From Agaricus subrufescens (Eukaryota; Basidiomycota; Agaricomycetes; Agaricales; Agaricaceae), in NCBI GenBank assembly GCA_029945375.1, contig CM057067.1, positions 310,001-374,000 on the forward strand: a stretch of DNA of 64,000 nucleotides, read 5' to 3'. Both the position numbers and the translations under genes were made by a program. How positions within the stretch are numbered: the stretch's first letter is position 1; each line of letters opens with the position of its first letter. Under the pieces are notes generated by a model. The model saw nothing but the letters and a program-made list of their open reading frames with translations. It was not told the DNA's origin and made no database searches. This document shows positions 6,121 through 46,661 of the stretch, piece after piece.

Positions 6121-6771
6121 TATAATGTACCTACCATCTTGGCTGTGGATATACTAAGTGCTAAAGTGAGGGTGCCAAAACAATGCCTGTGGCAGCGTGA
6201 TTTCTCTGGAGAAGTGCTGAGTGTTTAGACTTGACAAACCGGGCAATTCTCTTGGCCTGCATCATCGCTACTGGGACCAAATTTGAACCCACCATTGCAA
6301 TCTTTGCTTAACATTGTCGGTAAGGAAAGACAGCTAGCATTGAGTTGCAGATGTGGCTGAGAATTTCTTTGAGTTTTTGGTCAAGCGTCTCTCGCCAATC
6401 ATGTACCATACCCTTTGCAGCAAAAAAAATTGTGTGTGTATCATGTTCCGAAGATGCCCTGATCATTATCGCACTGCTAGAAACAGCATGCATGTCCCTC
6501 CTTGTATCCGCTCAGGAGCTGAGATCGACAATATTGCACTGAAAAGAAAAAGTTGTCATGATGTTGCAAGTAGTATCGTACTCGTGTGATGCGTGAAAGT
6601 GTTGTAATGTCTGCTGGTAACAGCTGAGTAATTTCATTATTTGTACACCCTAGATGATTACCTACCAGAAGGAGATGGTCAGAACTAGACTTCTTTCGCG
6701 AGTTCTGAGACTTGCTGAACAGTCATAAGGACCCTGGGGTCACACAATTCCTTGTCTCTACAGCAACTGCT
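6121..6771. other. Spacer between two small-family copies
   Basis: No supported gene. The final 130 bases (from about 6641) match the 130 bases upstream of the broken copy at 21879, including ACCTACCAGAAGGAGAT and CATAAGGACCCTGGGG. These two copies therefore share a promoter-proximal sequence. Confidence 0.6.
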
Positions 6772-7091
6772 ATGTCCGACACCGTTATTAACCTCAATCC
6801 CCATTTCAACGGCAAGAAAGGAATAACTCGCAGCAACTCATGCATCATTGGTGGCCTCTTCATTGAGGGTAAAGAGGGCGTGCGGTGGTTCGAGAAAATC
6901 AGTGGCGCGAAACTCGCGGAAGATCACTCTGAGGATCTGAGTGTCGTGATGTCTCTGCAGCATATACTTGAGGAACATGGTTTAACTGATTCGTGTCATG
7001 CCTGTCTCATTGATCCCTGCGCTGCGCATTGTCACGTCACCAATGGGCGTCCTATCGACCCTAGAGCTTGGGACTTCCTTGTCATCACCTA
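6772..7091 (+). pseudogene. Small multicopy protein, copy 2, 5' part (split by transposon)
   Basis: This is the first 107 codons of a small-family gene, from ATG at 6772 to the middle of the conserved DFLVITYI block. The frame breaks at 7091, exactly where the Plavaka element begins. The gene resumes at 18845 after the element. The encoded part is well conserved with the copies at 5512 and 29462 and has no other defect, so disruption by the insertion is the only visible lesion in this half. Transcription from its own promoter would run into the element and end in a foreign tail of a few residues (TAG at 7117-7119). Confidence 0.9.
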
Positions 7092-7099
7092 CATCAGCA

Positions 7100-7731
7100 A
7101 ACCGGCTCAAAGATTGTAGTGATTACATACTCAAAAATATATTTTGTATGAATACTATCTTATACAAACAAATGTGCAAGAATACAATGTACTCCCAGAT
7201 AATGTCAAGAGTAGACCATCTACATACAAGCTTTATTCTCTGGTTACAAACCAATAAAATATATTGGGTGAGGATTACCATCATCTGCACATTGTCTGGT
7301 AGGATGACAATCTTTGGTCCAAAGCTTACATTTCAATACAATTTATTAGTTGAAGAATACCATCATCCACATAAAACTTACATTCCAATACAATCTATTA
7401 GTTGAGGAATACCATCATCCACACACTGCTTGGTAAGAGTACCAGTTTTCAACCTAAGCTTATATTTTAAAGAAATGCATTAGCTCAGTATTACCCTCAT
7501 TTACAAAGTTGTAGAGATATAATACCATCTTTTGTCTAAAGCTTACATTTCCCTACAATTTCATAACTTGTCTGAACTTTCATGGTGCATGATTACAAAC
7601 TTTTAGACATTGATGGTCTTATTTACAATTTTTACAAGCTCTGCCTCAAGATATTCACAATCTGTTACAAGAAGTTACAACCTAATCATATGCTCTAAAG
7701 ATATCAACAGTCTGTTCCAGAAAATTACAAC
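7100..7731. repeat. Left subterminal repeats of the Plavaka element
   Basis: AT-rich, non-coding DNA between the left end and the transposase stop codon. Variants of a unit containing CTTACATTTCAATACAAT, then TATTAGTTGA-GAATACCATCATCCAC, recur roughly every 55-65 bases (7255-7560). Subterminal repeats of this sort commonly bind the transposase in CACTA-like elements. The 3' UTR of the transposase must also lie here. Confidence 0.7.
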
Positions 7732-10700
7732 CTAATCATATGCCCCATATCCTTCATTCTCTGGAACTATAAAGTCCTCATCAACCACATCTTCATTCTC
7801 CTCTGGTCTATCTGAATCTTCATCTGAATTTTCCTCACTGCTATTCACCTCATTGTCATCATCATCATCATCCTCACTCTCATCTTCATCTTCATTGGGC
7901 ACTTCTAAAGTCTCATCCTCATCATCCACCCAGTTGAAATGATGGACCATGGGTATATTCAGTGACTTGTGGCCAATCCCACCACCAAGAAAGTGCATGA
8001 ACATGTCACGATCTGCAAACCTATAATGCATTGTCACATAACTCTGCTATAACAAATAAACAAAAACTCACATATTGACATAATAAAATCTCCAGTCTTC
8101 TTCTTCACCACTTGGTTCACGTGCAATAGTCTTGGGAAGAATGTTATGGTGTCCATATTCAAAGGCAGGGATAATATGTGCAGCCCGCAAAACATAGTTT
8201 GGATCCAAGAACCCAAATTCATCACTATCATGATAGTGATAGAATGATAGACGAGGTAGGCGACGATGTTCAAATCCTGCAGGTGACTCTGTATCATATG
8301 AAAACCATCTCACCCACAGAAAATCAACTTGTTGAAAACTCCCCTTGTTGGCACCAACTTGTCGATGAAATACATCAGCATGAAAAATTCCCAATACTCG
8401 AGCATAGCAGTAAAGATGCTCATCTTCATCATTTCCAGTCTCTGCCAGTGTCATGATATCTGGGTGTGTGCGAGGATTTATTGTATCTTGAGATCGTCGC
8501 CCATCATAAGTTGTGAAATTGATGCGAAGATGTTTGTGCATGTACAACCGATCTCGAGAGAATATTACACCATTTCGCTCAGCCTGAGTATAGACTTTTC
8601 CTGGTTGGTGGTTACCATCAAGGTGGGCAAGAACATGATTTTGCAGCTTTGACAGAAAATCCTAGTAGCCATGATCAGACTTTGTTTTTATATATCAATG
8701 AAGTTTACCACAAACCTTGACTGCTGGGTCACCTAAAGACAAGTGTTCACCTAACCATGTTGTAATATCAACATAATGCTTCTTGGACTTTGACATGTGA
8801 TAGTGATCATTTGGTGAAGTTGCTGCCAATGGATCTGAATCTTCAAATGGAATAGCAAGTGAATGACGGTGATGCTGCTGCTGTGCCTTGATAAGAATCC
8901 GTTGGCGCTGTTGATGTTTTGCAATTTGCAAAGGAAAGTTCATTCGCTTGTTGGTACGAGCATAATGACGTTTGACTTGACGATGTTCTAATTCACCCTA
9001 TAATTTTGTTATACTTCTATCCTTTTCAAAAAAAAAAAAACTTACTATTTGAGTTGACATACCATCTGAAGGACCATGTAGTTTGATATATTCCACATAA
9101 TCTCCCAATGAGTGAAGTTTGACTGTACACAAATTGAAGGTACAATTTTGAGCAGATGTTTTTTCTTTTTTCCCATCTCTTTCCTCTTGACGGTTTCTTG
9201 CTGCAACTTCTTTGTCCAGTTCATAGGTATCATGTGATGAGCATACTACCTGGACAAATTTCCGGAGACAGGATCCCAGAGCTTGGGTACATTCTTCCAG
9301 AAGTGATACTGTTGACTCAGTATGCATTCGCAACTTGGCCAATGCATGCCAACAGCTAAGAATAAATAAGAGATCTTGAACAATCTCATTGTGTTGCATG
9401 AACACCAAATGCTCAAACACTGGAAGAGCACACTGTTATAACAGAAATATTAATGCTAGACCAATCTCATTTTAAAATTAAACATACCTGCAACAAATCT
9501 TCAAAATCACGGGCTGCTAGCTGTTTCATAGCAGAGGCATTTGCATGAAAATGGCATATTGTATCCCACCCAAATCTAGGTACAAGACGATATCTATATA
9601 ATAAAATTAGAAATATCACAAGCATACTCATAACAATGCATACCTTTTATCTAGCACTGTCACTTCCTCATGGTCTTGACACATTAGGATCCAGATTAAA
9701 TGGGTGAATACAGACTTCCAAACACCCAGCTCAAATTCATGAAGGAGATCTGGAACAAACATCTTGTGGAACTGAAAACCAAATTTGAACAGTTTTTCAG
9801 AAAATGCATTCTATCAATCCAAATTAAATATAGTTATATCAATAATCGGAGGACACTTACTCTAGTTGGAACCTCAGACAATGGTTTCAATAGGCTTTCA
9901 ACTGCTGTTCCATTTATATTTTCACCTCGTTGAAAAATCTTCTTACGGACAGTCTCAATTCTCTTGCGACATTGTTCATCATCAACCCGTTTCTCTTCTT
10001 GCTGAGCCATGTCTGACTCAGTTCCTAGCAGATAAATATCCTTCTTTTCCACCATGCATCTCACACAAGGACAGTTACCAAGATAGCATATTGTTCCCAA
10101 CAAAATTCTGATAGCTAATCAGTAATAACAATTAGATTAACAAAAGAACACATACTTTTCAGGATAATCAGCAGAATAGGAAAGAATACGAGGATAGAGT
10201 CGTCGTTCAACACCATCACCACATTTGACTACAAGACCATGTTCATAGGCAGCAAGAAATTCATCATCAAGCAAAAGCTTCCATATAGCATGCATAAGCT
10301 CTCGTTTAAGGTGTGTCAACACTGCTGCTGATGGCCCTCGATCAAATTTATCCTGATAGTGCTCACTAACAGTGGCCGGAAGCTGTAAGTAAATTCCTAT
10401 CAATTTTTCAAATCTCAAAACCAAAAAAAAAAACATACCAAAGGGATATAAGCCAAGTGATGAGCTGCATGCTCTGATGGTTTACATCGGGAATACTTTG
10501 ACTGGTTACCAAAGTAACAGTAAATTGGCCACAAAGATGCATCACCAAAGCTTGCAAGTTTAGTTGCATCTGAATGAAACATTAAAGCTGCAATAGCCCG
10601 GTTGAGATTACATCCAGGCTCCGGTGGAAGATTTTGCAGCTTCTCATTCTCATTGGTGAAAGCATCACAATTGTATGCTTCACTATAAACTCGTTCAGGC

Positions 10701-11907
10701 TCTGACTCTCCACTTTTTTGGTGCAGGAGTTTGAATGGTTCAAAGTGAAAACTTTGGGCAGTTTCATCACTAAACGCAGCTTGTATCACCTCAGTGAGTT
10801 TACGGTAGTATATACCACCAACACTGATTGTCATAGCCTCCAATTCTGGTGACTTCTCTGACTTGCGTTCAGGGGGTAACCTCAACAAAACTGAACCCTC
10901 AGTCCAACCAGCTTCTCTCAGGAATTCAGGAACTTTAGTGGTAACAATACAATTGACTTCACGATGAGCATTAAAGCCATCCAAATGCTCAACCCGGAAA
11001 TCTTTTGCTTGAATCACATTCTTCACCAAGTCATTGGTGGCATTTAGGGTCAGAGACCCCTGGGTCCGGGTGAACCATGAGACAAGGTTAAGAACAGTTG
11101 GGTTTTTATAAAGGCTAAACTCGTTTTCTGATGAAAAGCCAATACTATCCATAACTGTTCGGTTCAACGACATTTTTGATATATTGAAAGTCTGTGCGTC
11201 ACATAGATCCTCAAGAGTTTGATCTGCCTCAGGATCTGTGCTGATGTATTGAGTATAACGGCGAAATAACCCCAGGCCATTTGACATTGTTTCAACAATA
11301 GCAGTGGTGATGTCAAACGTGCCTGTGATTTCAGGCTCAGTATGGTCCTCCTCAGCGAGTACTGGAGGAGGCATGTGTGGAATTGGGGTAGGGAGTGATG
11401 GAACCATATCATTGAACCACCGTGGCTGTTGACGACAACGCCCTGATCGAGTTGAATACACAGAGCGGTCACGGGCTTGGACTTCAGACATCGGGGAACC
11501 CATTATGCTCTGTTCATTCATATAAGCTCATACTCACACATTTGAAAAGAACAAACAACTTACCATCATTGTATCATCATTCATCTGGCCACTGGGTCCT
11601 GGGGTAGGATCCCTAGTCGGCGAGACCTATGTATTTTAATTAATAAAAATATATTTATAGACATTTAAAAAATGCTTATGTTATCACTTCTGCCATCGGC
11701 AATATCTCGTTGGTCTGCTCGTGCAATTTTTCGAGTGGCAATGCGAGGTTCAGAGATTGAGTTTTTTCTTTTCAAGTCAACTTCAGCTAGCTGGGCTGCC
11801 CAACTATTCATCTCCTCTCGAAACAAGGCACATTTGCCCTGATGATGATTGCGAGATTGTTGGTTTTTTCCACGAAAATTGCACGCAGTGGCCTGGCAAG
11901 GAAACAT
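7732..11907 (-). CDS. Plavaka transposase, 11 exons, unbroken frame
   Basis: Predicted to cut and rejoin DNA at the element ends in the nucleus. Exons on the minus strand: 11688-11907, 11564-11598, 10439-11509, 10156-10382, 9861-10107, 9644-9810, 9488-9593, 9046-9432, 8716-8997, 8072-8661, 7732-8020. Introns are 48-89 nt with GT-AG ends, and summed exons give 3621 nt (1206 aa) with no stop. Order of parts: N-terminal Cys/His finger-like segment (C-x4-C...H-H-x3-C); Plavaka core with LPPEPGCNLNRAIAALMF, an Asp in HSDATKLASFGDASLWP and GNQSKY; LKRELMHAIWKLLLDDEF; zinc-binding CPCVRCMVEKKD; VPDLLHEFELGVWK with candidate catalytic Glu; GELEHRQVKRHYART; and a very acidic C-terminus. Residue roles follow from the family. 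An unbroken frame over 11 exons suggests recent activity. Confidence 0.9.
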
Positions 11908-11926
11908 ATTGGTGAAATGAGGGATG

Positions 11927-11981
11927 CCCCGGGACTACCCAGTAACAAGGAATCAACACAAACGTCTCCGGGACTACCCAG
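11927..11981. promoter_or_regulatory. Two GGGACTACCCAG motifs just upstream of the transposase
   Basis: CCGGGACTACCCAG occurs at about 11929-11942 and again at 11968-11981, only 20-75 bases before the transposase ATG. The same motif lies in front of the other two genes of the element (15106-15118 and 15554-15674). I see the sequence; a regulatory role is inference. Confidence 0.6.
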
Positions 11982-12589
11982 AAGACAATGGCAGCAGTCA
12001 ATGATCGATTGAGTTGAATAAACGTATGACCTGCTCAGTCACACTCACATGCCACATTCTCACGCATCAAACAACAATCCATGAAGAAGCATTTATTAAA
12101 CGTTGACTTGGAAACTGCTATCATGAATACAAGAGTTGGAAAGGTGCTATAATGTTCCCAAAAAAAGAGACAATGAAAACTCAAGAAAAAATGCACCAAC
12201 TTTTCTCCTAAAATTGCTATCATCTTCTAAATGGTTGAACTGACACAAATATAAGACTTACCGTGACATACCTACTAATGAAATCACCAGGCACCTATCT
12301 GTTCAGTCATAATCTTTGCATAGAGTACCTCTTGATATTTTTTTGCTCGCCTAGAGGCCCCGATACCCCTCATTAGAGACCTCCACTTGACCGATAAGAT
12401 TGGCACGGCTGTCCCCTATTTAATCATGTCCACTCGCTTTAGCCACTCTGATTCATTGCGAGGGGTCCAGTGTTCAAAGTCTTCACCTGACCCCTCAAAA
12501 CTAACCGAAGGGAACCAGGACTTTCTTGTTGTAGCCATATCTCCGCCCCCTATTCATGGTTAGACTTAATGTTATAATAAAGTTCAAAG
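11982..12589. other. Non-coding interval inside the Plavaka element
   Basis: It lies between the transposase promoter and the stop codon of the next minus-strand gene, so it should hold that gene's 3' UTR and part of the transposase promoter. No gene and no strong repeat seen. Confidence 0.55.
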
Positions 12590-14998
12590 TCACTTGCCTG
12601 TGTATTGATTGTATACCCCACATAAGACCTCCAGCTCTTCAGACATAAGGTCACCATCTATATATCCATGACCAAACTTATCTGTTGCAATGAACATCTC
12701 AGAGGGCTTCGCATACAAACCTGAGGGGCCACTGAGAGCCTCGCCAACTCCAATCGAGATAGATGCAATTCGTCCAATATATCCACCTCTGAGCAGAGCT
12801 GCGTGAGACCTAGGATGTGTAAAGAAGCGGTTGCGTTGATCCTCATAGGCAGCAAAGTCTGCCGCAGTGAACATATGGCCTGACAGATGCACGGGAATAA
12901 AAGCTGGTAAAGGTGGTGCCGTCACTGCTACTAATGTTTCCCGCAGTTGGACAGTGCAGAACAATATACCGTTTCTGATAAGGTCGATTGCAATCTCCTC
13001 TTCACTCAGCTTGTCGGGTAAACGACATATGTAAAATAGGATCATGGGTGATGCCACAGCGATTGACCAAGGCACAGTGGCTTTCTCCTCGAGATCAATC
13101 ATATAGAAGATCTGCTCTGCTCGCTTCAAGAGACGAACACAGCTTAGACGCCCACCAAAGTACAAGGTGTCGCGATTGTTGGGGGCGACGTCCCACAAAT
13201 CTTCCCTGGGAGGACTATGTTGCTGGCCCATAAGAGACATCACGAATGCCACGCAGAGCCGACCAAGATCAGATGCAAAAAATGGATCATTTGAGAAGAA
13301 GCGATTCTCGCCTAGGAATTTGAGCAGCCATTGAGCCTGAAACTGCTGCTCTTTCGTAGGTGCAGAGCCTCCTGTGTTAGGCATCGGAGTAGGAGGCACA
13401 AATCCGTGATACGATCTAAGAAGGCCTACGATGATATGGGCGATATCGTCGACCGGAACTTGCGGCGAAGAATCAGGAGGCGCGGCAGGAGCAGGGGCAG
13501 GGGAGTGAGGGGTGAACAAAATGGGAGATGGCGAGCCTGGACACTGATTTGCAGGATCAGGATGCTCTTCAGGAGTAGCATCTTGGGATCCGGACGGAAG
13601 TTCGATGACGCCGTCATTCTCGATTGACTGTCCCCACAATGAACAACAGTCCCATTCATTCAAATAGGCATCGAATCGTTTTTGAGCCCCACTATAATCT
13701 GTGAGCGTGTCTTCATTGTTGCTCTTGAGAACCAGCGATCGAACAAATTCATCATCATTGTTCCAATCCCAAACGTAGACACGAGCCTTCCTGATGCTAG
13801 GATTTTGAGCTCGTGAGAGCCGTGCTTGCTTCTCTCTGGCACTCTCTTTCTTCTCCATCTTCTTATGGAGTTGACGACGCTTTTCGAAATGTGGGGCCCA
13901 GAAAGATTTGGCCGAGGGTCTTGATGCACGAGAGCGGGGCGGCGAAGTAGTGGAGGAGCGGTGGGTAGGCTGAGGAGTGGTGGTGTGGTAGGGGGTGGCT
14001 GGCACAGGAAAGTCTGGTTGCAAGAAGTCGTTGTCGAAGAAGGACGCGCTCTCATTAAAGGAAGAGTCTGTCTCAGTGTAGGAATAATGCGCTGGAGGGT
14101 GAGGTATTATGCTTCTGTCGATCCAAGTGACTATGGTTTGTAGTTCTTCGGATCGAGGCGCCATCAACCCATACTTCGCGATCTTGTTGGCACAGCTGAT
14201 CTCCACATTTGTCCAACGGTACCACACTGGAACTCCCTGTTCCATAAACCAGGCTGCAGGGGGCTGAGACGGGCGACGATTTGGATTATGCAGCCACAGA
14301 CCCACGCGATCGACTTCCCAGTTACGATTGAGGAGGGGAGTCAAGCAAACGCTGTCTACGGCGGCGTGCATCGAGTGGACAACGATCACCTTTTTGAGCC
14401 AGGACGGAGGTACCAGGCCCTCGATGAAGTCGTCGGGTTCGCGTATCTTCCTGGTCATCCAGAAGAGGAGACCAAGAAGCATAGCAAACCAGTCCCGGCC
14501 ACACTGGATGTTATGCCTGGCTGCATCAGCGGTAGAATGTGTTCGATCATATCCTAGATCTGAGGGGGGGAAGGGTTTAATAAAATTGAGTTGGAAATGC
14601 TCGGCGAGAATATTGATGAGTTCGCTGAGCAGTTTTTCCGCCTGTGTCCATCGCTGACAGACGGGGCCATACAAAACATACTCGTGGTTGCTGAGCTTCG
14701 TCGGCTGCCACGGTATGTGACTTAGTGCGTCAAACCATGCGCCGCTATACATCACAGGCCTACGAGGTACAAACCCCAGCCATTCTGAAGACTCATCCCA
14801 CCAGCGAGGTTCTTCGAAGTCACGAACCTGGGATGTTGCAGGCTTGAAGATTAAAGGATCGTCGAGGGGTAGAGGGCGCGGAGGAGATCGGGTGCAGTTG
14901 GGAGAGTAATAAATGGTGCCATCAATCATCCAGCATTTGCCAGGCGGTCGTTCGGCGTATGCTTGCCCTTGACGCGTTTGCGTATAGTAGCTAGCCAT
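12590..14998 (-). CDS. Plavaka cargo gene 1: about 800-aa agaricomycete family, function unknown
   Basis: Single-exon frame. I chose ATG 14998 (MASYYTQTRQ); the frame stays open to an earlier ATG at 15058 (822 aa), but that stretch looks like promoter sequence. The N-terminal half is Trp/Pro-rich and globular. The middle (about residues 350-400) is Ser/Thr/Pro-rich. A basic, helical stretch follows with EKKESAREKQARLSRAQNP, then a FDAYLNEWDCC block. The C-terminal part holds SHAALLRGGYIGRIA. From memory, basidiomycete proteins of unknown function carry near-identical blocks (R-x-SRLxR, NEWDCC, AALxRGGY) in large lineage-specific expansions. No enzymatic motif, signal peptide or membrane segment is evident. 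It is transcribed away from the DUF6698 gene and shares an upstream motif with it. Confidence 0.85.
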   Translation of the reverse strand: MASYYTQTRQGQAYAERPPGKCWMIDGTIYYSPNCTRSPPRPLPLDDPLIFKPATSQVRDFEEPRWWDESSEWLGFVPRRPVMYSGAWFDALSHIPWQPTKLSNHEYVLYGPVCQRWTQAEKLLSELINILAEHFQLNFIKPFPPSDLGYDRTHSTADAARHNIQCGRDWFAMLLGLLFWMTRKIREPDDFIEGLVPPSWLKKVIVVHSMHAAVDSVCLTPLLNRNWEVDRVGLWLHNPNRRPSQPPAAWFMEQGVPVWYRWTNVEISCANKIAKYGLMAPRSEELQTIVTWIDRSIIPHPPAHYSYTETDSSFNESASFFDNDFLQPDFPVPATPYHTTTPQPTHRSSTTSPPRSRASRPSAKSFWAPHFEKRRQLHKKMEKKESAREKQARLSRAQNPSIRKARVYVWDWNNDDEFVRSLVLKSNNEDTLTDYSGAQKRFDAYLNEWDCCSLWGQSIENDGVIELPSGSQDATPEEHPDPANQCPGSPSPILFTPHSPAPAPAAPPDSSPQVPVDDIAHIIVGLLRSYHGFVPPTPMPNTGGSAPTKEQQFQAQWLLKFLGENRFFSNDPFFASDLGRLCVAFVMSLMGQQHSPPREDLWDVAPNNRDTLYFGGRLSCVRLLKRAEQIFYMIDLEEKATVPWSIAVASPMILFYICRLPDKLSEEEIAIDLIRNGILFCTVQLRETLVAVTAPPLPAFIPVHLSGHMFTAADFAAYEDQRNRFFTHPRSHAALLRGGYIGRIASISIGVGEALSGPSGLYAKPSEMFIATDKFGHGYIDGDLMSEELEVLCGVYNQYTGK

Positions 14999-15105
14999 AG
15001 GGAGTGCAAATAGGATTCGGATTGTAGATATAAAGCCGCACGGGTCTACCCAGAGCAACTAATATAGGAGAGAAGAGAGACGGATGTGGAAGATAACACC
15101 CCCCC

Positions 15106-15118
15106 CAGGACTACCCAG
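15106..15118. promoter_or_regulatory. CAGGACTACCCAG motif upstream of cargo gene 1
   Basis: This differs from the motif found twice before the transposase by one base in its core (AGGACTACCCAG for GGGACTACCCAG). It lies about 110 bases upstream of the chosen ATG. Confidence 0.5.
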
Positions 15119-15312
15119 AGGAGATGCGGTGTATGTGGATGGATGGTGAGAAAATAAAGGCAACTAGAGACGAGAGAGGCTATCAGAAAGGTGGATGCAA
15201 AAGATTTGAAGCCGTACTCACTGTTTTTTGAGCCCAGAAATGCCTGCTATCACTTACGCTGGCGGTGGTGGTGGTGGTGTTGGGATGAGGCGAAGACGCG
15301 AGTGGCCATCAA

Positions 15313-15475
15313 CGATCAGTGATCAGTGATCAGATCGTTGATGGCCGATGTGATCACTGATCATGATCATTGTGCATGATCATGAAGGTGCGTGATCATG
15401 AAGGTGCGTGATCACGCGTGACAAAATGCGTGATCATCACTCAGCGATCATTGATCAATGATCAGTGATCACTGA
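15313..15475. promoter_or_regulatory. GATC-dense palindromic array in the divergent promoter region
   Basis: About 15 GATC sites fall in 163 bases, most of them as TGATCA, GTGATCAC or CATGATCATG palindromes. They include short direct repeats (GTGCGTGATCATGAAG) and an inverted pair CAACGATCA...GATCGTTG. The array lies between the divergent cargo genes and is flanked on both sides by GGGACTACCC motifs. Such density is far above chance. Whether it binds a protein, forms structure or is a methylation target is not shown by the sequence. Confidence 0.6.
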
Positions 15476-15551
15476 TTGGTCATCCCTCTTGTTTCCTACC
15501 ACTACCGTCGCCCACCACCGCTATGGCCCGAGACTGGACGTTTGTGCGATC

Positions 15552-15674
15552 TTGGGTAGTCCCGGATCGTATAATCCTCCACTATTCCACCTCCTTACGA
15601 TGACATAGGGTAGTCCCGTGTCGTATATTCCTCTACGATTCCACCTCCTTACGATGACCTAGGGTATTCCCGGG
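15552..15674. promoter_or_regulatory. 54-bp tandem repeat carrying GGGTAGTCCCGG, upstream of DUF6698
   Basis: Three repeats start at 15554, 15608 and 15662 (the third is partial). Each begins with GGGTAGTCCC or GGGTATTCCC, followed by a TCGTATA-TCCTC block, an ATTCCACCTCCTTACGATGA block and a linker. The leading motif is the reverse complement of the one upstream of the transposase and cargo gene 1. Confidence 0.65.
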
Positions 15675-15998
15675 TCGTCATTAACACTCTGATTCCTCGC
15701 GCCCCCTGCCCCACTCTCTATCCATGGCCTCTGCGGTCGCTACTATGTAGCATCACCACATTCAACGAGGATATTTGGCTCCTCTAGACGGCGCAAACCC
15801 TCACCTTTCACGCCTCCGAGTTCCCGGAGCCGGCTTCGATCCCCTGATTGACAGGTCAGACGTGACCCGACATCAGAAGCCCGCCATCTATCCATATCCA
15901 GCAGCCTCGTCGTCTGGCATATTTAAGAGAGATTCAAGTTCTTTTCCTCTCTCCCCTGAACCACCATCTTATCGCCTTGCCTGTGCGCGCGTAACGTC

Positions 15999-18125
15999 AT
16001 GCCTGCTCATTCTCAACATGCAGACCAGCCTTTGTACGAAGTTGACGACGTGAAATACCTCGCGGACAGTCTCAGGAGCAATGACAATCCCGCACCAGCG
16101 TAAGTCACAAATTTCTGCGCATATATGGCCTTTATTTAATTATACTAGTACCTTGGAGCAAGACTACCTGAAATTCGCTTGATGGGGAGCACGCAGCATC
16201 TGTCCCGACATCAATTGGACCCTTGTCTTCTCGATTGGCGTGCGCGAGATTAGCGGCATCGCGCCGCGCGATACTAGGTGAGATATCATGTAATATATGC
16301 GCATATATTAACCCATGTTGCCAGGGGAAATGAGCAGAATGCCGCTATAGCTAAGAAGGCTTGGGATCGACTCGTACAGAGGGTGCCTCGCACAAAAAAT
16401 ATCGCACGAGTTCTGCTTGAAGACCCCAAGCTCTTATTGGCCCTTGGTAAAAGGGTGAGTAGTCAAAACATAGTATATGCGTCTATGTAACAAGTTACTA
16501 GATGAATCGGGCTGCCAAATGTGCGCAGAGCGATGATATTCGGGGCCTCAGGAACGTCGGGCTTCGTTACATTGCTAGACAGATGCCCAACCGTAAAATA
16601 GAACTGCCAATCGAGATCGGGAGCGATAAGCAGGTCGAAAGAGGGTGGAACCATCCTCAGATCACTGAGCTACTCCTTCCAATGTGCTATCAAAAGGATT
16701 ATGTTGCTGATCCTGAAGGGTAAATATGCATATATGCGCTCTTAATACATTGGCACTGATAATATTTTATAGAACTATAGCACGGATAAAGAGCGGGGAG
16801 CTGAAGATCAAAGCCAATACATACCCCTCGTTCCTGTATCATCGGGACCATTGGGACTCGTATGACAAGGAGGACGTGCGCAAGGGATTGTTCAACAATT
16901 CCTTATCCCTGCTGGTAAGATCCTCTCTTATGATTAAATTCCGCTACATTTATATTTTATGTAGGTTTATAAACATCTATTCACATCACCTTCTTCGGCG
17001 GAATCTGAGGAATACACAGAAACGCACACCCGAAAAAGTCAAGCCAAGCTCAATCATCTGACCAAGGTGACTCCTGAGACGTGGGCATACGCCGTCCTTC
17101 ATGTATGTTTTTATTTTATTTGGTCATATGTCCGCCTGATATGTTTCATAGACCCATTATATGCTGTGGGGAAGTAACAACTGGCATGACAAAACTGGAT
17201 TTTTCAAGCGCGAGAAGTTTTTCGATAACTTGGTAGACATGTTCTCAGGGCACAATCGCTGGATTCACTCTACATTGACCCACTTATCTGCGTATATTTT
17301 TTTTCTCTGGTGTCAATGATACTTGGTTGATTATGTTATTTTTTCAGGCGGGTATTTGGCCCTCCTTGGCAGATTGGTGGCGAATGGGATACAGAGTCTG
17401 ATGATGATAACAATGACTTTAATCTTTTCGCTGCGCAATGTGAGCAAGATGAGTCAGTTGAAGAAAATGGTGAGGAAGCGCATAATGAGCAAGATCGTGA
17501 GGTTGTAAGTGTTGGTGAGAATGAGACGACCGCTTTTGGTGGAAACGAAGAGATGTTCGAGAAAACTGAACAAGAGAGGTATATTTCTTACAATTTTTTT
17601 TTGGTGGTACTGAAATTATTGCATAGAGAATTGTCACCTTATGGAGAGGATAGAATCCGGGCACGCAGTGCATTGTTCGTGTTTCTGCTCATTCTGAACA
17701 TTGACATATTACTAATCCTTTGATAGATTCCTATTTTCTCGGGAGAATTCGCCGGTGGCCAGTAAGGGCGCAGAAAATAACAAGGCATCAGAATCGTGTG
17801 AAGAACAGGACCTGTTAAGTGAGGCCTACCCTACAAAGCGTGGCAAGAGTACACAGGTTCATAAACGAGTTGCAGCACCACCAAACCCAGATGAAGGTCC
17901 CTCGAGCGAAGTGCAGTGTGCAAAACGTCAAAGGAGCATGCGAGGAATTGAAAAGAAGGAATATTTGTTGAAAAATATTCAAAAGGAGAAGGAGGGGCAT
18001 TTTTCACAGCGCGGTGAGTGTGTTCTACATGAGAATTGTCGATGCTGATAGATTTTCAAGTTATGCCACCGTCATCGACGCATAAAAACAAGAAGAATAA
18101 GGGACTGCATGCTAAAGCGACTTAG
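15999..18125 (+). CDS. Plavaka cargo gene 2: DUF6698 protein, 10 exons
   Basis: Exons: 15999-16099, 16197-16277, 16325-16454, 16502-16719, 16773-16914, 16965-17102, 17152-17291, 17348-17578, 17727-18013, 18061-18125. All junctions are GT-AG, the sum is 1533 nt (510 aa), and no stop interrupts it. The DUF6698 signature is at residues 225-236 (VYKHLFTSPSSA). It is followed by VTPETWAYAVL and a Trp-containing segment ending the domain near residue 330. The C-terminal third is Asp/Glu-rich then Lys/Arg-rich and looks disordered, ending KKNKGLHAKAT. DUF6698 is a large uncharacterised basidiomycete family; I know of no assigned function. Its place inside the element, with a promoter motif shared with the transposase, argues it is carried as cargo. 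Confidence 0.88.
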
Positions 18126-18339
18126 TTACAAAATTGCTTCATTTGTAGAATTTTTTCTTGGGCGCCTTGTTCTTGGTATCAAGTTTCTTGGTCCTCTTGC
18201 TAATGTTTTTTTTTGGTAGTGTACAAAAATTTCTTGGTCGTCTGGTAATTCTAGACTGTCTGTGTAGTGCATGATAAGGAATGTGACAATGATTGGAAGT
18301 ATAGTATACATCTGATAGTATTGTAACTTGTTACAATTG

Positions 18340-18660
18340 ATGGTACAGATGGTATACTATTTAGTTGATTGTAACGATGGTCTACTATTAAGTTGATTGT
18401 AACGATGGTATACTATTAAGTTGATTGTGAATATGGTATACATCACCTTTGAGGGTAAGCCTGGGATACGTTACCTTTGATTGTAAGAAAGGTATATGTT
18501 ACCTTTGATTGTAAGCAAGGTATACGTTGCCTTTGATTGTAAGCAAGGTATATGTTGCCTTTGATTGTAAGCAAGGTATACGTTGCCTTTGATTGTAAGC
18601 AAGGTATATGTTGCCTTTGATTGTAAGCAAGGTATGGCCTAGCTCTGACGGTAAGGAAAG
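18340..18660. repeat. Right subterminal tandem repeats of the Plavaka element
   Basis: A first block (18345-18435) repeats TTGATTGTAACGATGGTATAC. A second (about 18470-18640) has at least five copies of a 28-bp unit, CTTTGATTGTAAGCAAGGTA plus eight bases, alternating TATACGTTGC and TATATGTTGC. The reverse complement resembles the CTTACA-rich units at the left end. This is non-coding. Confidence 0.75.
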
Positions 18661-18844
18661 TATGCTTTACAAGTGCTTGTGATGAATGTAGACATCGCCA
18701 TATATTTTGAATATTATATACAAGTAGGGCAAAAATTCCATAAACAACTTGAGGATTTGTTGTGATTGTGGTAAATATGGTGCATTGGAGGGATTACCCT
18801 CGGATTTTTGAGGATTACCTCTTCTGAGCTGGTTCACTGATGTA

Positions 18845-19093
18845 TATTGAACGCGGGCCTTTTTATCATGATGGAGTCGGTGGTTGTAACTATGTTGTCG
18901 ATGAAGAGAGGAAGCCGTATCCCGGGGTGAAAGAGGCGAGATTGAAGGAACAATTGAAGGAGTTGTTTGGTATGTTGTGGCCTGTACTTATCTTTCATCG
19001 CCTTGCTGATGCGAATCTCTTCCAGGAATTGAAGCTATTGGCTACAAGAGCCAATACTGTGACCTGTTCTACTCGTGGCTAGTTCGTTATTGA
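18845..19093 (+). pseudogene. Small multicopy protein, copy 2, 3' part (split by transposon)
   Basis: This continues the gene that breaks at 7091. Exon 1 resumes here and runs to 18969. A 56-nt intron (18970-19025, GTATGT...CCAG) follows, and exon 2 is 19026-19093, ending CGT TAT TGA. Conserved residues include the RPF-HDGV-GC block, PGVKEA-LKEQLKELFG and GYKSQYCDLFYSWLVRY. Apart from the insertion this half has no defect. Confidence 0.85.
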
Positions 19094-19479: not shown

Positions 19480-21717
19480 ATGCAAGCCTTTCCTAATGCA
19501 CACAATTTTGCGTTAAACAATGCCACGTTTGCCAATCAGAACATTTACTACCAATCAAGCAGGAATGGTGAGTAGGAACATTAGCCTCAAAAGCAAACTG
19601 ACCGTTCCGTTCTATCAAAGGTATTGACATTTTGCGAGAGGCATCCACTCCAGAGGCTGCTTTTGATTCTGACTCTCGCCGATATGTGCTCTCATGTTTT
19701 CCTGGAACTCGAACACAGCACATCGAAGACATCGTCAAGTGGGGCACTGCTGGATCAAGTTGTCCAATATATCGGATGACTGGACCAGCAGGGGTTGGAA
19801 AAACCGCCATCGCACAAACGTGTGCAGAAAAGCTTGGTGATGTGTACCAACTGGGAGCGTCGTTCTTCTTCAAGGCAAATGTATGCGATGACTACACTCG
19901 CTTTTTCACCTCTATATCGCACCAGCTCTCGTCAAAGTCTGTTGATTACTATGAACTTCTCGACCAGAAACTGAAACATGATCCTGGTCTTGTTCACAAA
20001 CAATTGAGGTCACAATTCAAGTGACTGATTGTCGAGCCGTTACGGGAGATGGAACGAAGAGGGAGGTCATTTGGCAGGGAAGTTATCCTTATCGACGGTC
20101 TGGATGAATGCAAAGACAAAGATGCTCAGAGGGGAATCATCGAGATCATCATAGATTCAGCCGCTGCTCGAACCACTCCGTTCTACTGGGCCTTCTTCAG
20201 CCGTCCCGAGCCTCAGATACAGGCCGCATTTGCGGATCGTAGAGTAGTGTCCCTCTGTATCTCTACCTTCCTCCCGATCTCTCGTAGTATTGATCAGGAG
20301 ATAGAGCTTTACCTGCGAGATGGCCTCCAAAATATCCTCCATCGCCGCAGTATCGCTACATCTGTTCCTTGGCCTACAGAGCAAGATATACACGCGCTTG
20401 TATCTGCAGCTCAAGGGCTGTACATTTATACAGCAACAGTTCTTCGCTTTGTCGGACGGACAGACACACAATATGATCCACAAGAGCTGCTACGCATGGT
20501 CATCAGAGGATCTGCACCAGGTGGCTCAATAAGGTCGCCATTCGAGGAGTTGGATGCCTTTTACACTCTCATCTTGCAGCGTGTACCGAACGAACTCCAC
20601 TCTTCCACCCAACTTCTTCTCTCTTACATAGGCTCGGTGCCTGCCAGTGGATTTACCCCAATACATCTCTTATGCAATATGTTTCGGTTCTCCGAAATCA
20701 AACTGAAGATGTTATATGGTGAACTGGTCGGCATTTACGACGCCCTTTCTCCGTTAAACTCGTGGACAATATCATGCTACAACCCTTACCTTGCTGATTA
20801 CATCTCTTTATGGAGATCAGAGCCGCCCAATCGAGAATTTGTGCTGCTACCCTGTCATAAATCTTTTGTCGACTTTATCACTGACCCCACTCGATCTGGC
20901 CCCTTCTGTGTTAACACACCCGCGGTACGCAACATGTCATTCCGTCATATTTTACAAATTCAAGTCGACTACTCGGGGACATATTCTTTCAATAGTGACT
21001 GTATGTGACGTGAATCTCGCCAACAGATTGACTACTCACTGCCGTGTACAGCATGTGGATTAACCTTTACTGGATCAGATGTAAACACAGACAATGTTTA
21101 TATCTGGCCATACTATTCAGAAAAATTGAGAGCAATATGCACAGCTCAGGTGTTCCAACTATCAACAGCACTTTTGCTCCACAAGTTCTTCCCCTACGAT
21201 GACATAGACTCAGCACTCCTTCGCGGTCTCGGAGACTTGGATCATCGTACAGCTTTACAGGTTTTCTTATTGTTCTACGGAGAGCGGATTTACCACGGCA
21301 TGCTTAGCTTCAATTTTCCCTGTTCCGCAAGGACTCTCCGTGGGACAGTCTTATGTTCGACATGTCATCGGAACATGTCCGCTTTTGATGTCGAAAAGTT
21401 TCGAATAGTGAGTTCGGTTTGTATTACATTTGTACCGTACTTGATACGTTGTTTTATAGGGTCTCTCGAGACTCGAAGCTGCTAAAGTTATCCAGCGATA
21501 TCAACCAGACTCAACGTCGTTAGAGTTGCCTCTCTTTCGTTGTGATTCTGATGACAATCTTTTATCCGGGTTATACATCAAAGGTCGTGATCGGATGAGC
21601 ACATTTTGGTATTGGACTATAGATTTCGAAATAGGGTATTTTCGAAGCTTTGAGACAGCGGATTTAGTGGAGGGGGAAAAGATATTCCGAGAAGAGAAAT
21701 TTGAGCTATGGGGCTAG
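19480..21717 (+). pseudogene. NACHT-domain STAND NTPase, one internal TGA
   Basis: Exons: 19480-19567, 19621-21000, 21052-21407, 21460-21717; the joined frame is about 693 aa. After a short N-terminal segment (FALNNATFANQNIYY, typical of agaricomycete NACHT proteins) comes a Walker A motif GPAGVGKTAIAQT, a Walker B motif VILIDGLDEC and the FFSRPEPQIQAAF segment. No ankyrin, WD or TPR repeats follow, so it is a short, repeat-less NACHT protein. Such NTPases act as signalling switches in fungal non-self recognition and programmed death (family knowledge). The frame is interrupted once, by TGA at 20022-20024, just before Walker B. A 57-nt GT-AG segment (20021-20077) could splice it out in frame but would remove a stretch that looks conserved, so I call a likely recent pseudogene. 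Confidence 0.8.
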
Positions 21718-32918: not shown

Positions 32919-34900
32919 CTACTGCGTAGCCAATGATTCTAAGTGAATGACACTTGACAACATTGTATACCTCTGGTCAATTTCTTGCAATTTATCCGCT
33001 TCAGAGTCATCAAGATCCTCCTCCTCATGATTTTTTAGCTCCCCTGAAACAGCTGGCGGTTGACCCTCAACCTCTAGATCACTGTCATCGATATCAAGAT
33101 TGATGTGCCTGGAACAATCAGTACTTTGGCCCGGAATTATACTGCCACTGAATCCCGGATTGCCAGCTAGTTTTAGGAACCTACGCATATGCAAGTCCTT
33201 GAATCACATAGACTTGAGGTGAAGACGTTTAATCTGATGGGCAATGAGGTTATTTGATTGAGCCACTTTCTTCTCCATTGCACATAGATACTTGTCTTCA
33301 TCATGGAAATAAGTGACAACTCGGCAGATCTCAATATTAACATGTTTGATTTCTTCATGTGCCCAAATGATCTTGAAATGTTGGTCCATGAGAGTGCGGG
33401 ACTGAGGTCGTGCCCATGGGCACTGAGTAATGTCTTCACAACAATCGCAGAGGAGTGAAAAATCTGTAAGAAATGCATAGTCGACGACCTGATCCCAAGT
33501 CAACTTCTGGCATGGGGGCATCATTTCTGCTGCAGCTGAGTTGTATCAATCAATGGCATTCCGTATAGCTTGTGAGCATTGACAAAGTGTGTTACCAATA
33601 TGTTTACACATTTTGTAACCTGATAGATGTGGATTAGCACTACCTTATACAATAGAGACTAGGCATGCCCACCTGTTTGCGATATATTCATTTTTGTAAG
33701 TTCAAAAAGTCGGGAGACTACCAGAGACTCAAGTTCATCCAAGCAGCGTTGATAATGCTGGTGTATGAACAGAGTAGCAGCTTTATTCCACTCCGGTGAA
33801 CCCAGTACCCACTGCTCTCCAGGTAGGATGTCTAGCATATGTTCAAGATCTTGAACCCTGTCAAGAGTCTTTCCAAACTGCTCTCGTGTGTGCATCAGCC
33901 GTAGACCGTGGCTTTGGTTTTGACAAGGCTGCTTGCCAGAGCTAATGGAACCAGGGGTAGTGATGGGAGGTTGATATGCAATGAAGTTTGCCTGTTGCTT
34001 TTGAATGTCATCTCTGAAGTCAATGTTGAACGAGATATTTTTGAAGTAAAGAACTACTCACTGAAGTGAATTGAGCTTAACCAATGCTCAGTAGTAGTCA
34101 ATGTATAGAGTCTCTACCTCAGGTTCCTTTGATTGCTCCAGGAGATATTCACACTCCTCTCTAAGCCAGTCATTGAAGACACCAGCATCAGGAATTCCCG
34201 CCCTGTGCATTGTGTTGTAGAGATCCTGTTCACTGGCAATTATCTGGAGTGCTTGTTTGTAGTTATTGACAAGGAATTCACCTGAGGTGTTGAATTCAAT
34301 TATTCAGAGTACGCAAAAAGGTGTGGGGGTTCAACGCACTGAGGTTTTGTGATGTTTCAGTGATATCCGTATGCTTCATGTATTCAGTGATGTGTTGCCG
34401 GCGGTGGAAAGCACTTGAATACCTGACAGAACTGGCCAAGGCATTGGATTTTGAAAAAAACTGTTCACATCCCTCCAGATCCTCAAGTCCAAGTCCTTCA
34501 ACATACATTGTCAAGTTTGAGAGTTGGCAGAGTTGATTGTGGGCATGGCCATGGAATGCGCCAACTAGAGTTTTGAGGCACAGATCCTGCACTTTATCCC
34601 CCAATCCACTCTGAGCTAATGTAGCACTGAATTGATAACCAATATCATACCCTACCCCTATCCCAGCTCCAAACGTGTCTAGGAGCTTTTTGACGATGGC
34701 CAAGGGATACTTGGCTCTAGAAAAAATCTCCATATTATCAAGGGCTCAAGGCAGAAACATATATAGCACTTACAACTCCCCACTACAAACCATATCTGCA
34801 ACAAGTAGAGCATATCCATGGTGACAAGGGGCTAGAAAAATCCCAGTCTCATCAAACACCCCCCACATCGCATGTACGAAATGTTGGCTGCTCAAGGCTT
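32919..34900 (-). pseudogene. KDZ transposase, 5'-truncated and decayed
   Basis: Recognised from FDETGIF, ADMVCSGEL, KYPLAIVKKLL, GYDIGYQFSATL, LVGAFHGHAHNQLCQL, GLGLEDLEGCE, SNALASSVRYSSAFHRRQ and the following C-terminal region, which ends with TAG at 32919. An intron separates about 34776 from 34733. The N-terminal CxC zinc regions and first catalytic segment are missing upstream of about 34900. At least two in-frame stops (near 33545 and 33200) and frame breaks around 34040-34280 make it inactive. KDZ transposases act in the nucleus on the element ends; this copy could only move if supplied in trans. Confidence 0.85.
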
Positions 34901-41444: not shown

Positions 41445-44400
41445 TCAAGAAGGAAGAGAGACAACTCCCAGAGACCCACGATGCTTATCAAAAATTGGTT
41501 GGGGCAATGGCTTCGTCAAAATATCTGCAGGCATCTCCGAGGTGGGTAGCCACGATGTAGACAGTTCCTTTCCCATATATTGTCGGAGGAAATGATGGCG
41601 CACGTCGATATGTTTAGTCCGGGATGAGATCACTTCTCGGTTTGCTATGGATATCGCTGCCGAATTGTCGCAAAGAATCGGATAGGGTGAGGGGATAGGA
41701 ATATCAAGGAGAGTGAGAAACATCCTGAGCCAGAGTGCCTCCTTCACCGCATGTGTTAAAGCGTAATATTCCGCTTCGGCAGATGAGAGCGCTACCGATT
41801 TCTGCTTGACAGCCGACCAAGAGATGCAACATCCTAGGAAGAAAAAACAGAAACCTGCAATACTCCTGCGATTGTCAATGTTGGAGGCCCAGTCCAAATC
41901 TGAGAATCCACCATGTTGAATGTAGCCTCGGATAGCAGTAGGGAAACGATCATCTCGCCGTCCAAAAACCATACCCATCCGCCTAGTTCCAGCAATATAC
42001 CGTAAGACATTTTTAGCAGCGACTAAGTGTTTGCGTGTTGGATTGGCATTATGTTGACCAAGCACCATACAGACATAAGTGATATCGGGGCGGGTGCAGA
42101 GAGCGAGGTAGAGTAGACTCCCAACGAGGCTCTGGTAGGTGTGTTTTAAGTCACTGTCAGATATAGTCGGTAGTGCTCCGGGTGGAGGATCCTTCATCTC
42201 GGATAGCTGAGTCTTGATTGGAATACCCAGTGGTGGCGCATCACTCATATTGTAGTCATCAAGGAGATCCCCAATAAAGGCTTCTTGTGATAAATGAATG
42301 GTCCGCTCCGAGCGATTCCGAATGATCCTACAACCAAGATATAGCTGAGCGGGCCCTAGATCAATAATGGTAAGACGCTTCTGTAACTGTGCCAAGAACC
42401 ATGAATATAGTTCCCGATTTGTAGACGCTGTTAAACCATCATCAACATGGACAGGGACCAATAATTGTAAGCGGCCAGATCGTGGCATCGGGATTGAGGG
42501 GTCTGGGGGAGATTCCCAAATCCCATAAAAGAATGCATGATCCACTTCGCTATGTCGCATACCAATACTCTCCATCACAGTCAAGATCAACTGATAAAAC
42601 TCGTAGGCCGCCTGTCTGAGTCCGTAGAGGGCAACATTGAGTTTCAACACCCGTGATGGATCCGCTAGAGGGTAGCCGGGTATCTGTCTGATATAGATAT
42701 CTTGCCGCAATCAAGCATGGAGGAATGCAGTCTTGCAATCCCATCCATATAACTCTAAATCGTTAACGGCAGCTATGGACAAGACAATTCTGATACTCGC
42801 CATCCTCGCAACAGGTGCGTACGTCTCTCCGTAATCCTCCGGCCGTTGACTGAAACCCTTAGCCACTAACCGGGCCTTCTCTTCACCTTCTCTCGGTACT
42901 CCCATGTCGTCCAACTTGTAAGCGAAAACCCATCTCACATCTATTGCTTTCTGTCCCTTAGGTAGATCACACTCATCCCACGCCTTCATTCTCATCAGGC
43001 TGTTGTATTCCCTGTCCATCACCTTCTTGAACATTTTCCAATCTCTCCTCTTCTGCGCTTCACAATAATTCTCTGGTGCTTTATGGTAACCAAAGGAAGT
43101 GGCAACCATCGATATCGGCCTGTCCATCATGAGATCAATCAACACATCTTCACAACCCGCCATCGCAAATTCGGTGAATTCTGATAAATATCCTTCGTGA
43201 ACAATGTCTTCTACACCCCCATACGCAACTAGTGCTCGAACGGTGTCAGGGGAATGAGAAGGTTGTGTGCCAATGTTGCGAGTTGAACGTCGAGTGGCTC
43301 GTTGTTTGATTTCGTCAAGGTAAGGTTCTCCTTTTGCTGTTCATACTCGTGTTCTATCACCCCCATCCAACGGAGTTGGAAGCGTAAGAGGACGCGGAAC
43401 ACCGAGACGACCAGGGCAAACTTCATCAAAGATGACGTCAGCCAAAAAAGCATACAAACCAGAAGTCGACCGCACACGCCAGCCAGCCCGAGACTCCTCA
43501 TAACCAACAAAGATAGCCTCATACTGTCGAGGACCAGCTTTGGAACGCTTCTCTGGTGGAATCAGAGGGTAGCAAAGACACCCCCATACATGCAGATGCG
43601 AGAGATCGGGCTTGGATCCAAAGACACGCTCAAAAGGAGTCACACTGGAAGGAAGGGTGGAAGTAGGCAGGCGATTCCGAAGGTATTGCATGGTCAGGAT
43701 GGCGTCACCCCAAAACTGATCCGGAAGTCCAGAAGTAGCCAGAAGGGTCTGGCAACCGTCCTCCAAGGTCTGTATGAACCGCTCAGCCTTGCCGTTCTGA
43801 TGATGGGCATAAGGAGCAGTGACCTGAGCCACAATGCCAGCGTCGCATAGGTAATCCCCGAGCTTACCAGCAACAAACTCCTTGGCACCATCAAAACGGA
43901 TAGAACAAACAGCAGCAGAACATTGTTTGAGGAGGAGGGCCTCGGCCACGCGAAAGGATCTGAAAACATCCGAACGAGATGACAAGAGGTAGGTGAAGCC
44001 AAAGTTGGAAAAATCGTCCAATAAGGAGAACGCATAACGAGCCTTCGAAGCAGTCTGAACCAGCCATGGACCACAAACATCCGCATGGACCAAAGCACCA
44101 ATGGCGACAGCACGGTTACCACGAGAAGGGTGACTCTGCTGAGCACCCTTGCCGATAGTGCAGGAGGGACACAGGGAACGCTGAAAAAACCCAACATGTG
44201 AAACCCCTCTCACATAATCCTTCATTAGAACAGAGCGAGTCGCATTGAAACCAAGATGACCAAAACGCTGATGCCACAAGTCCGGAGTCAAAGGAGCAGA
44301 GACAAAGAGGGAAGTGTCGTGGTCAGAAGACAAGTGACAGAATGTATTGACGTAGTGACACCGCAACCAGGAAAGGCCATTGCGAGCAGTCACCGGCAAC

Positions 44401-46520: not shown

Positions 46521-46661
46521 GGGGTGGGTGTATGCGTTATAAACTGGATATATGCTGGTTTTTAGTTAAGCGGCGGATATATGCGTCACAATAAATCCTA
46601 TCAAGAACGAATGCTATGAGTTGTCAAGAATCTATACGTATCCTACAATCGGTTGATGGCA

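Follow-up and report, generated by a model that had tools for sequence, protein, structure and literature searches.

The DNA examined here (the window, 64,000 nucleotides) is C11:310001–374000, contig CM057067.1 of the Agaricus subrufescens assembly GCA_029945375.1 (44.65 Mb in 44 contigs). At 7092–18842 it holds a DNA transposon with a Plavaka-type transposase gene and two further genes, one encoding a DUF6698 protein and one, in the middle, encoding a protein of about 800 residues that we call MID (the NEWDCC gene of an earlier annotation made from the letters alone, hereafter the sequence-only reading). That reading had proposed a complete Plavaka transposon in this interval, which is borne out by the inverted ends, the TA duplication, full-length copies elsewhere in the genome, and the Pfam assignment of the transposase. 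The element starts with CATCAGCAAACCGGCTCA at 7092 and finishes with TGAGCTGGTTCACTGATG at 18842 (form CATCAG...CTGATG), the two inverted ends being an imperfect match to each other. When the flanks are fused with a single TA, a continuous reading frame runs over the insertion site, indicating that the boundaries are right and that the insertion split a frame. The subterminal repeats that had been noted at both ends were recovered as well, and the left and right arrays have short words in common that are equally oriented relative to the ends (e.g., TTGTAA, counted 8 times on the left and 9 times on the right vs 4 in the 10.5-kb interior). Positions given without a contig are those of the window.

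6709–7091, plus strand: left part of the reading frame interrupted by the insertion, which resumes at 18845–19082
7090–7091: target site duplication TA, left
7092–18842, no strand: whole element, 11,751 bp, fitting the PlavakaB type, with inverted ends, a 2-bp duplication and full-length copies elsewhere
7092–7109, plus strand: left terminal inverted repeat CATCAGCAAACCGGCTCA
7244–7743: left subterminal repeats, periods of 52 and 50 bp
18290–18693: right subterminal repeats, 28-bp period, with ten successive starts at 18337–18589 and an eleventh at 18645
18825–18842, minus strand: right terminal inverted repeat CATCAGTGAACCAGCTCA, given in the inward direction
18843–18844: target site duplication TA, right

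The gene models were built from the sequence, without transcripts, and place the transposase and MID genes on the minus strand and the DUF6698 gene on the plus strand.

7732–11907, minus strand: Plavaka transposase gene, 11 exons, 1,206 a.a., no stop
12416–14998, minus strand: MID gene, exon 1 at 14998–12598 and exon 2 from 12549 to about 12416, with a GC-AG intron
15314–15476: short GATCA-rich repeats of the divergent promoter between MID and DUF6698, where the indels between copies are largest
15999–18125, plus strand: DUF6698 gene, about 10 exons, the 3′ exons uncertain

In a Pfam search that took in 1,111 of its 1,206 residues, the transposase matched the Plavaka transposase domain PF18759 (E 6.6e-32, 111.5 bits against a cut-off of 26.3) over positions 45–318 of 325. 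Its N-terminus carries a CxxxxC...HHxxxC arrangement that looks zinc-finger-like by eye, and a CVRC motif can be read from the translation without alignment. The DUF6698 protein is a full-length member of PF20414 (E 2.4e-46, 158.5 bits against a cut-off of 23.7; positions 2–206 of 206), with an acidic, aromatic stretch (EWDTESDDDNNDFNLF; conserved form EWDT..DDD.NDF.LF..QCEQD) and a basic C-terminal tail that falls in the uncertain 3′ exons; an alternative splice variant of the gene falls out of frame. It gave no matches (0) to solved structures. Exon 1 of MID comprises 802 open codons, and exon 2 is a modelled exon whose end was read by eye, supported by a frame that corresponds to it in the diverged second family described below (KYWFPSLTFEGSGEDYMHWTPKNEAEW vs KSWFPSVSFEGSGEDFEHWTPRNESEW), where the motif WFPS..FEGSGED..HWTP.NE.EW recurs. 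No significant Pfam match was obtained for MID with its own sequence and three relatives, nor anything in NCBIfam; against solved structures the sequence gave 0 matches and a profile a single match at chance level (E 2.3), and the structure predicted from the single sequence was of no use (mean predicted local distance difference test score of 36.7). The unbroken multi-exon frames described in the sequence-only reading thus hold for the 11 exons of the transposase and, weakly, for MID, which lies mostly in one exon, with the 3′ exons of DUF6698 left uncertain.

Genome DNA searches that used the two ends as queries returned three further full-length copies, at C10:2227993–2239839, C2:3774269–3786115, and C4:3103327–3120154, together with a 2.26-kb internally deleted relative on C7. 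The duplications flanking these copies are AG (C10), AG (C2), and GC (C4), beside TA in the window and TG in the C7 relative; the duplication is therefore 2 bp long yet not TA-specific. The window copy and the C10 copy show 162 differences in 11,744 aligned bases, the C10 and C4 copies 68 in 11,799, and the C10 and C2 copies 5 in 11,847. The last two remain alike beyond the element, with 15,847 bp including flanks (C10:2225993–2241839 and C2:3772269–3788115) at 99.95% identity, so they are most simply counted as a single insertion duplicated together with its surroundings, leaving three independent insertions. On either side of them lie 1.35-kb stretches in direct orientation that are 83% alike, so that the element lies within a repeated unit older than itself. 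The greater length of the C4 copy is due to a foreign 4,991-bp element in its transposase gene (ends CAGGGGGCTGGCAAAACCCGAAGCC, target duplication of about 9–10 bp), and its right subterminal array holds an additional 28-bp unit. Copy-by-copy integrity was judged for transposase and MID, given the uncertain 3′ exon model of DUF6698: under the window gene models, the C10 and C2 copies have a stop at codon 726 of the transposase and another at codon 17 of MID, and both genes are unbroken in the window copy alone, one of the four. Between the window and C10 copies, the ratio of replacement to silent substitution rates (dN/dS) is about 0.45 for the transposase and MID, a weaker signal than that between families.

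The search for further Plavaka copies also revealed a second family that carries the same three genes. Its element at C3:1855403–1867492 (12,090 bp; ends CATCAGCAAACCGGCTCA and GGCGCCGGTTCGCTGATG; AT duplication) contains transposase, MID, and DUF6698 in the same order and orientation as the window element and its copies (family 1), with an identity of 55–79% over the stretches compared: 231/338 residues in transposase exon 3, 155/196 in transposase exon 10, 486/779 in MID, and 91/164 over three pooled DUF6698 exons (47% when longer stretches are aligned). The proportions of replacement and silent sites that differ (pN/pS) are 0.186/0.685 and 0.118/0.611 for two transposase exons, 0.226/0.762 for MID (a ratio of about 0.30), and 0.289/0.785 for three pooled DUF6698 exons (about 0.37). 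Since replacement change (0.12–0.29) is far below silent change that is near or at saturation (0.61–0.79), the plain reading of these sequences is that all three genes have been under purifying selection since the families split. Two further loci resemble family 2. One, on C3, is bounded by a DUF6698 match (3846574) and a left end (3865099), MID and DUF6698 being some 9 kb apart; the other is at the start of contig C31, with only transposase and MID within view.

All three genes of the window element stand behind a common 14-bp box, predicted from the sequence and of CTGGGTWGWCCCGG-like form.

11929–11942, minus strand: promoter box CTGGGTAGTCCCGG of the transposase gene, upstream edge 35 bp from the ATG
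11968–11981, minus strand: promoter box CTGGGTAGTCCCGG of the transposase gene, upstream edge 74 bp from the ATG
15040–15053, minus strand: promoter box CTGGGTAGACCCGT of MID
15105–15118, minus strand: promoter box CTGGGTAGTCCTGG of MID
15552–15565, plus strand: promoter box TTGGGTAGTCCCGG of the DUF6698 gene
15606–15619, plus strand: promoter box TAGGGTAGTCCCGT of the DUF6698 gene
15660–15673, plus strand: promoter box TAGGGTATTCCCGG of the DUF6698 gene

The upstream edges of the MID boxes lie 55 and 120 bp from the ATG, those of the DUF6698 boxes about 340–450 bp. With up to one mismatch, GGGACTACCC has nine matches in the window where 2.04 would be expected, a count reached in 0 of 100 shuffles; eight of the matches are inside the element, seven of them upstream of the three genes and the eighth at 18790 near the right end. 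Family 1 thus has two boxes for the transposase, two for MID, and three for DUF6698, each CTGGGTAGTCCCGG-like when read along its gene, and all seven are present in the C10 and C4 copies too. Family 2 again has seven boxes distributed 2/2/3, of the form CTGGG(T/C)T(G/A)(A/T)CCCGG with small departures. Box orientation follows gene orientation in 14/14 cases, the two transposase boxes are 39 bp apart in both families, and base 7 is A in all seven family 1 boxes and T in all seven of family 2. A matrix built solely from the family 1 boxes gave six hits in family 2 at a score of 11.6 or above (200 dinucleotide shuffles averaged 0.21 such hits and never exceeded 2); the seventh box scores 8.3.

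The MID/DUF6698 promoter region (15020–15700), used in a DNA search, matches just the four family 1 copies, so that five or more of the seven boxes have been kept amid otherwise diverged sequence. In a looser comparison of the two families, a 59-bp piece of this promoter region aligns and holds no box, and a second aligned stretch, about 240 bp long at transposase exon 1, has an edge at 11943 that just includes the first transposase box, for which plain sequence homology may suffice. Genome-wide, 12 of the 14 exact matches to CTGGGTWGWCCCGG are in promoters of these elements, and the two outside are at chance level (about 1.3 expected by simple arithmetic). Of the 41 one-mismatch matches, 18 fall in the elements and one in the deletion relative on C7, with the other 22 outside; a reversed-pattern control gave 31 matches vs 55 for the box (exact and one-mismatch together). 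The box is near-private to these elements, a statement that is not an independent enrichment test, as the pattern was drawn from them.

Matches in the genome were merged into loci within 4 kb, giving 70 Plavaka, 9 DUF6698, 55 MID, and 65 KDZ loci, numbers that are lower bounds (scoring covered 55 of 104 candidates for MID and 123 of 153 for Plavaka). The expected counts assume uniform placement and are blind to repeat clustering; hence, KDZ transposase loci served as the control. All 9 DUF6698 loci, which represent about four independent lineages, lie within 15 kb of a Plavaka locus (0.42 expected; KDZ control 0/9), as do 14 of the 55 MID loci (2.6 expected; KDZ control 1/55), counts that measure nearness and not membership in one element. 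At 10 kb, the figures are 5/9 and 13/55, and at 20 kb they are 9/9 and 14/55 (KDZ 1/9 and 1/55); the single DUF6698 locus near KDZ at 20 kb is that of the window element, which has a KDZ match 17.4 kb away. KDZ elements are ruled out as the vehicle of MID or DUF6698 by the 15-kb control counts. TET/JBP genes are likewise ruled out as cargo of the elements studied, none of the three Tet_JBP loci of the genome (C2:3846077, C7:2235142, and C14:163711) being inside one. Within this genome, both accessory genes do occur in other Plavaka elements and are enriched near them, and the tie of DUF6698 to Plavaka claimed in the sequence-only reading stands. Its companion claim, that MID spread as Plavaka cargo, holds for some copies only, as MID is enriched near Plavaka but most of its loci, counted further below, have no detected Plavaka gene nearby.

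The association is modular, comprising triple elements, DUF6698-only Plavaka loci, and MID-only Plavaka loci. In the MID-only loci, MID and the transposase are on opposite strands. Of the 70 Plavaka loci, 17 have DUF6698 or MID within 15 kb, most Plavaka genes here having neither. At C13:703377 and C3:1284509, 10.3 kb separate the Plavaka and DUF6698 genes; in most of the C13 gap, which was examined, there are other frames and no MID, and element ends were not found. Around the two-gene locus C10:930406, the surrounding 10 kb examined contained no CATCA-type end pair. The MID genes away from Plavaka fall into several look-alike sets with near-equal scores (e.g., C1:608006, C1:2249496, C13:248056, and C21:15804), with no Plavaka or KDZ detected within 15 kb. 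Several matches on C6 are repeated on C9 with an almost constant shift of about 278.9 kb, so that a stretch of about 280 kb appears twice, either as a segmental duplication or as a leftover haplotype.

Much shorter relatives of the element are also present. The end pattern has 1,425 genome matches at up to three mismatches (control 842), and among 78 of the 100 matches listed there are at least 18 facing end pairs 813–832 bp apart; facing pairs on C32 probably repeat those on C11. One element of about 820 bp (C11:2146610–2147432, L067) has a CT duplication and ends resembling both families. Judging from these ends, the ~820-bp elements are probably non-autonomous and mobilised by the same kind of transposase.

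Kojima 2025 (PMC12730594) describes PlavakaB as having CATCA..TGATG ends, 2–3-bp duplications, and TET/JBP cargo in Agaricomycotina. A further mark of the lineage is a pair of motifs, C(2)C and H(3-4)H, that lie between the second D and the last E. The element studied here shares the Plavaka transposase, the ends, the 2-bp duplication, and the room for an extra gene, but differs in that its extra genes are DUF6698 and MID. CATCA..TGATG termini are present at C11, C10, C2, C4, C7, and C3, and the duplications found (TA, AG, AG, GC, TG, and AT, plus CT for the short relative) agree with the 2–3 bp of PlavakaB. By domain, termini, and duplication, the element fits the published PlavakaB lineage. 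The portion of that paper available mentions no shared promoter box. In the open literature searched, we found no paper naming DUF6698, PF20414 occurs in none of five papers listed, and the parts of the open main texts available for three Plavaka papers (PMC8290104, PMC9674265, and PMC7473861) make no mention of such accessory genes; what is new is the DUF6698 and MID content kept across two families, together with the near-private promoter box.

Among better known systems, the VANDAL elements of Arabidopsis invite comparison. According to PMC10398659, the noncoding DNA of these elements has short motifs, specific to each family, to which VANC proteins bind, causing loss of silent marks; VANDAL21 and VANDAL6 (VANA, VANB, and VANC) resemble the window element in having a transposase and two further genes, and their short noncoding motifs differ between related families and shift in step, as the boxes do between the two families here. 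The transposase of VANDAL is of the MuDR type (PMC12730594, in the part available), while the one here is Plavaka by Pfam, and the element is hence not a VANDAL member. Anti-silencing has been shown there and is proposed here, and the two are likened by their working, not by protein sequence.

A second parallel is offered by Spm/En and other CACTA elements, which encode TnpA and TnpD and in which an accessory protein can bind both repeats and promoter. Like the window element, Spm/En has a CMC-type transposase, subterminal repeats, and a separate accessory protein, but the ends here are CATCA and not CACTA, the duplication is 2 and not 3 bp, and the accessory proteins match only DUF6698 in Pfam.

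The explanation we favour, and regard as probable on the sequence evidence, is that of one cut-and-paste transposon system of the PlavakaB lineage with two integral accessory genes and a shared, probably element-encoded regulator, working in a VANDAL-like manner. That it is one transposon unit follows from the recurrence of the same genes, order, and matching ends at C11, C10, C2, C4, and in family 2. Plavaka-type transposases bind the ends of their elements and move them by cut and paste; the transposase here would bind the subterminal repeats and move both the element and its ~820-bp non-autonomous relatives. One element-encoded protein would bind the box and set the expression of the whole element, an element-encoded reader being favoured by the shift of base 7 in step between the families. 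DUF6698 would be the first candidate regulator, as in this genome it is found beside Plavaka only and has the conserved acidic, aromatic, activation-domain-like stretch. Most likely, the accessory proteins would sustain expression of the element in the face of host silencing, the role that VANC plays for VANDAL. As all three genes stand behind the same box, their arrangement suggests that the three proteins work together in controlling the element, and we infer, as had been proposed in the sequence-only reading, that they form a working system. A more specific version, in which an element-encoded DUF6698 or MID reads the private box at the three promoters and co-evolves with it family by family, forming an anti-silencing circuit that parallels VANDAL/VANC and arose independently in Plavaka, is a possibility about which we are rather doubtful.

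Several observations weigh against the favoured explanation. Away from any detected Plavaka gene lie 41 of the 55 MID loci. Plavaka and DUF6698 occur together without a detected MID at C10:930406, C3:1284509, and C13:703377, and Plavaka with MID occurs without DUF6698 (e.g., C9:296100), so the three genes are not obligate partners. The top score of a single shuffle (20.3) exceeds the top real family 2 score (17.3), and it is therefore the count and placement of the boxes, not single sites, that carry weight. The exact and one-mismatch matches outside the elements, in view of the 31 matches of the reversed control, mean that a host factor could read the box. Two-mismatch matches occur in nine more Plavaka loci (L029, L030, L037–L039, L041–L043, and L048), and in the partial promoters of six DUF6698/MID loci outside both families (L061–L066) the box form was not found. 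Finally, Pfam gave no DNA-binding domain in the three proteins besides the transposase itself.

The accessory genes might instead be passengers, two captured host genes without a role in the element that persist by hitch-hiking or by serving the host. The many MID loci away from Plavaka would fit this, and the available part of PMC12730594 reports uptake of TET/JBP by fungal DNA transposons; yet both genes and their order were kept across two families despite near-saturated silent sites, with constrained MID and DUF6698 proteins, the box is common to all three genes in equal counts and orientation, and every DUF6698 locus found in this genome is near Plavaka, all of which makes this account rather unlikely. 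Alternatively, a host transcription factor could read the boxes and the accessory proteins could act in transposition itself, through end binding or target choice. TnpA of Spm/En is the model for such an accessory protein, a common box requires merely some common factor, and the subterminal repeats, present on either side, require an end-binding protein that is possibly one of the accessory proteins. Set against these points, exact boxes outside the elements are at chance level and base 7 is altered in step across all boxes, a better fit to an element-encoded reader; we consider this arrangement unlikely, if worth keeping in view.

The accessory pair could also form a selfish counter-silencing module that acts on the host independently of the transposase and uses the box for its own autoregulation only. 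Its genes do occur singly beside Plavaka at other loci, but the transposase gene has two boxes of its own, set 39 bp apart in each family, which renders this distinctly improbable. That three unrelated genes came together by chance or by nested insertion, forming no unit, is barely credible: nested insertion does occur, as the foreign element in the C4 copy demonstrates, but the same genes recur in the same order between matching ends in all four family 1 copies and in family 2, which mainly refutes it.

DUF6698 and the MID family are uncharacterised, and the tie of all nine DUF6698 loci in this genome to Plavaka gives DUF6698 its first biological setting. The near-private box recasts what had been called cargo as a testable circuit of three proteins and one 14-bp site in two versions. 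If confirmed, it would reveal a way in which DNA transposons of mushrooms may sustain their own expression, a question that PMC12730594 has argued from elements carrying TET/JBP.

Elsewhere in the window, a NACHT-like frame recognised by eye lies downstream of the element at 20025–21008, and a KDZ transposase match is found at 34365–34874 on the minus strand. Long frames at 41445–46565 (minus strand) and 54288–59949 (plus strand) resemble, by eye, Copia-type retrotransposon polyproteins.

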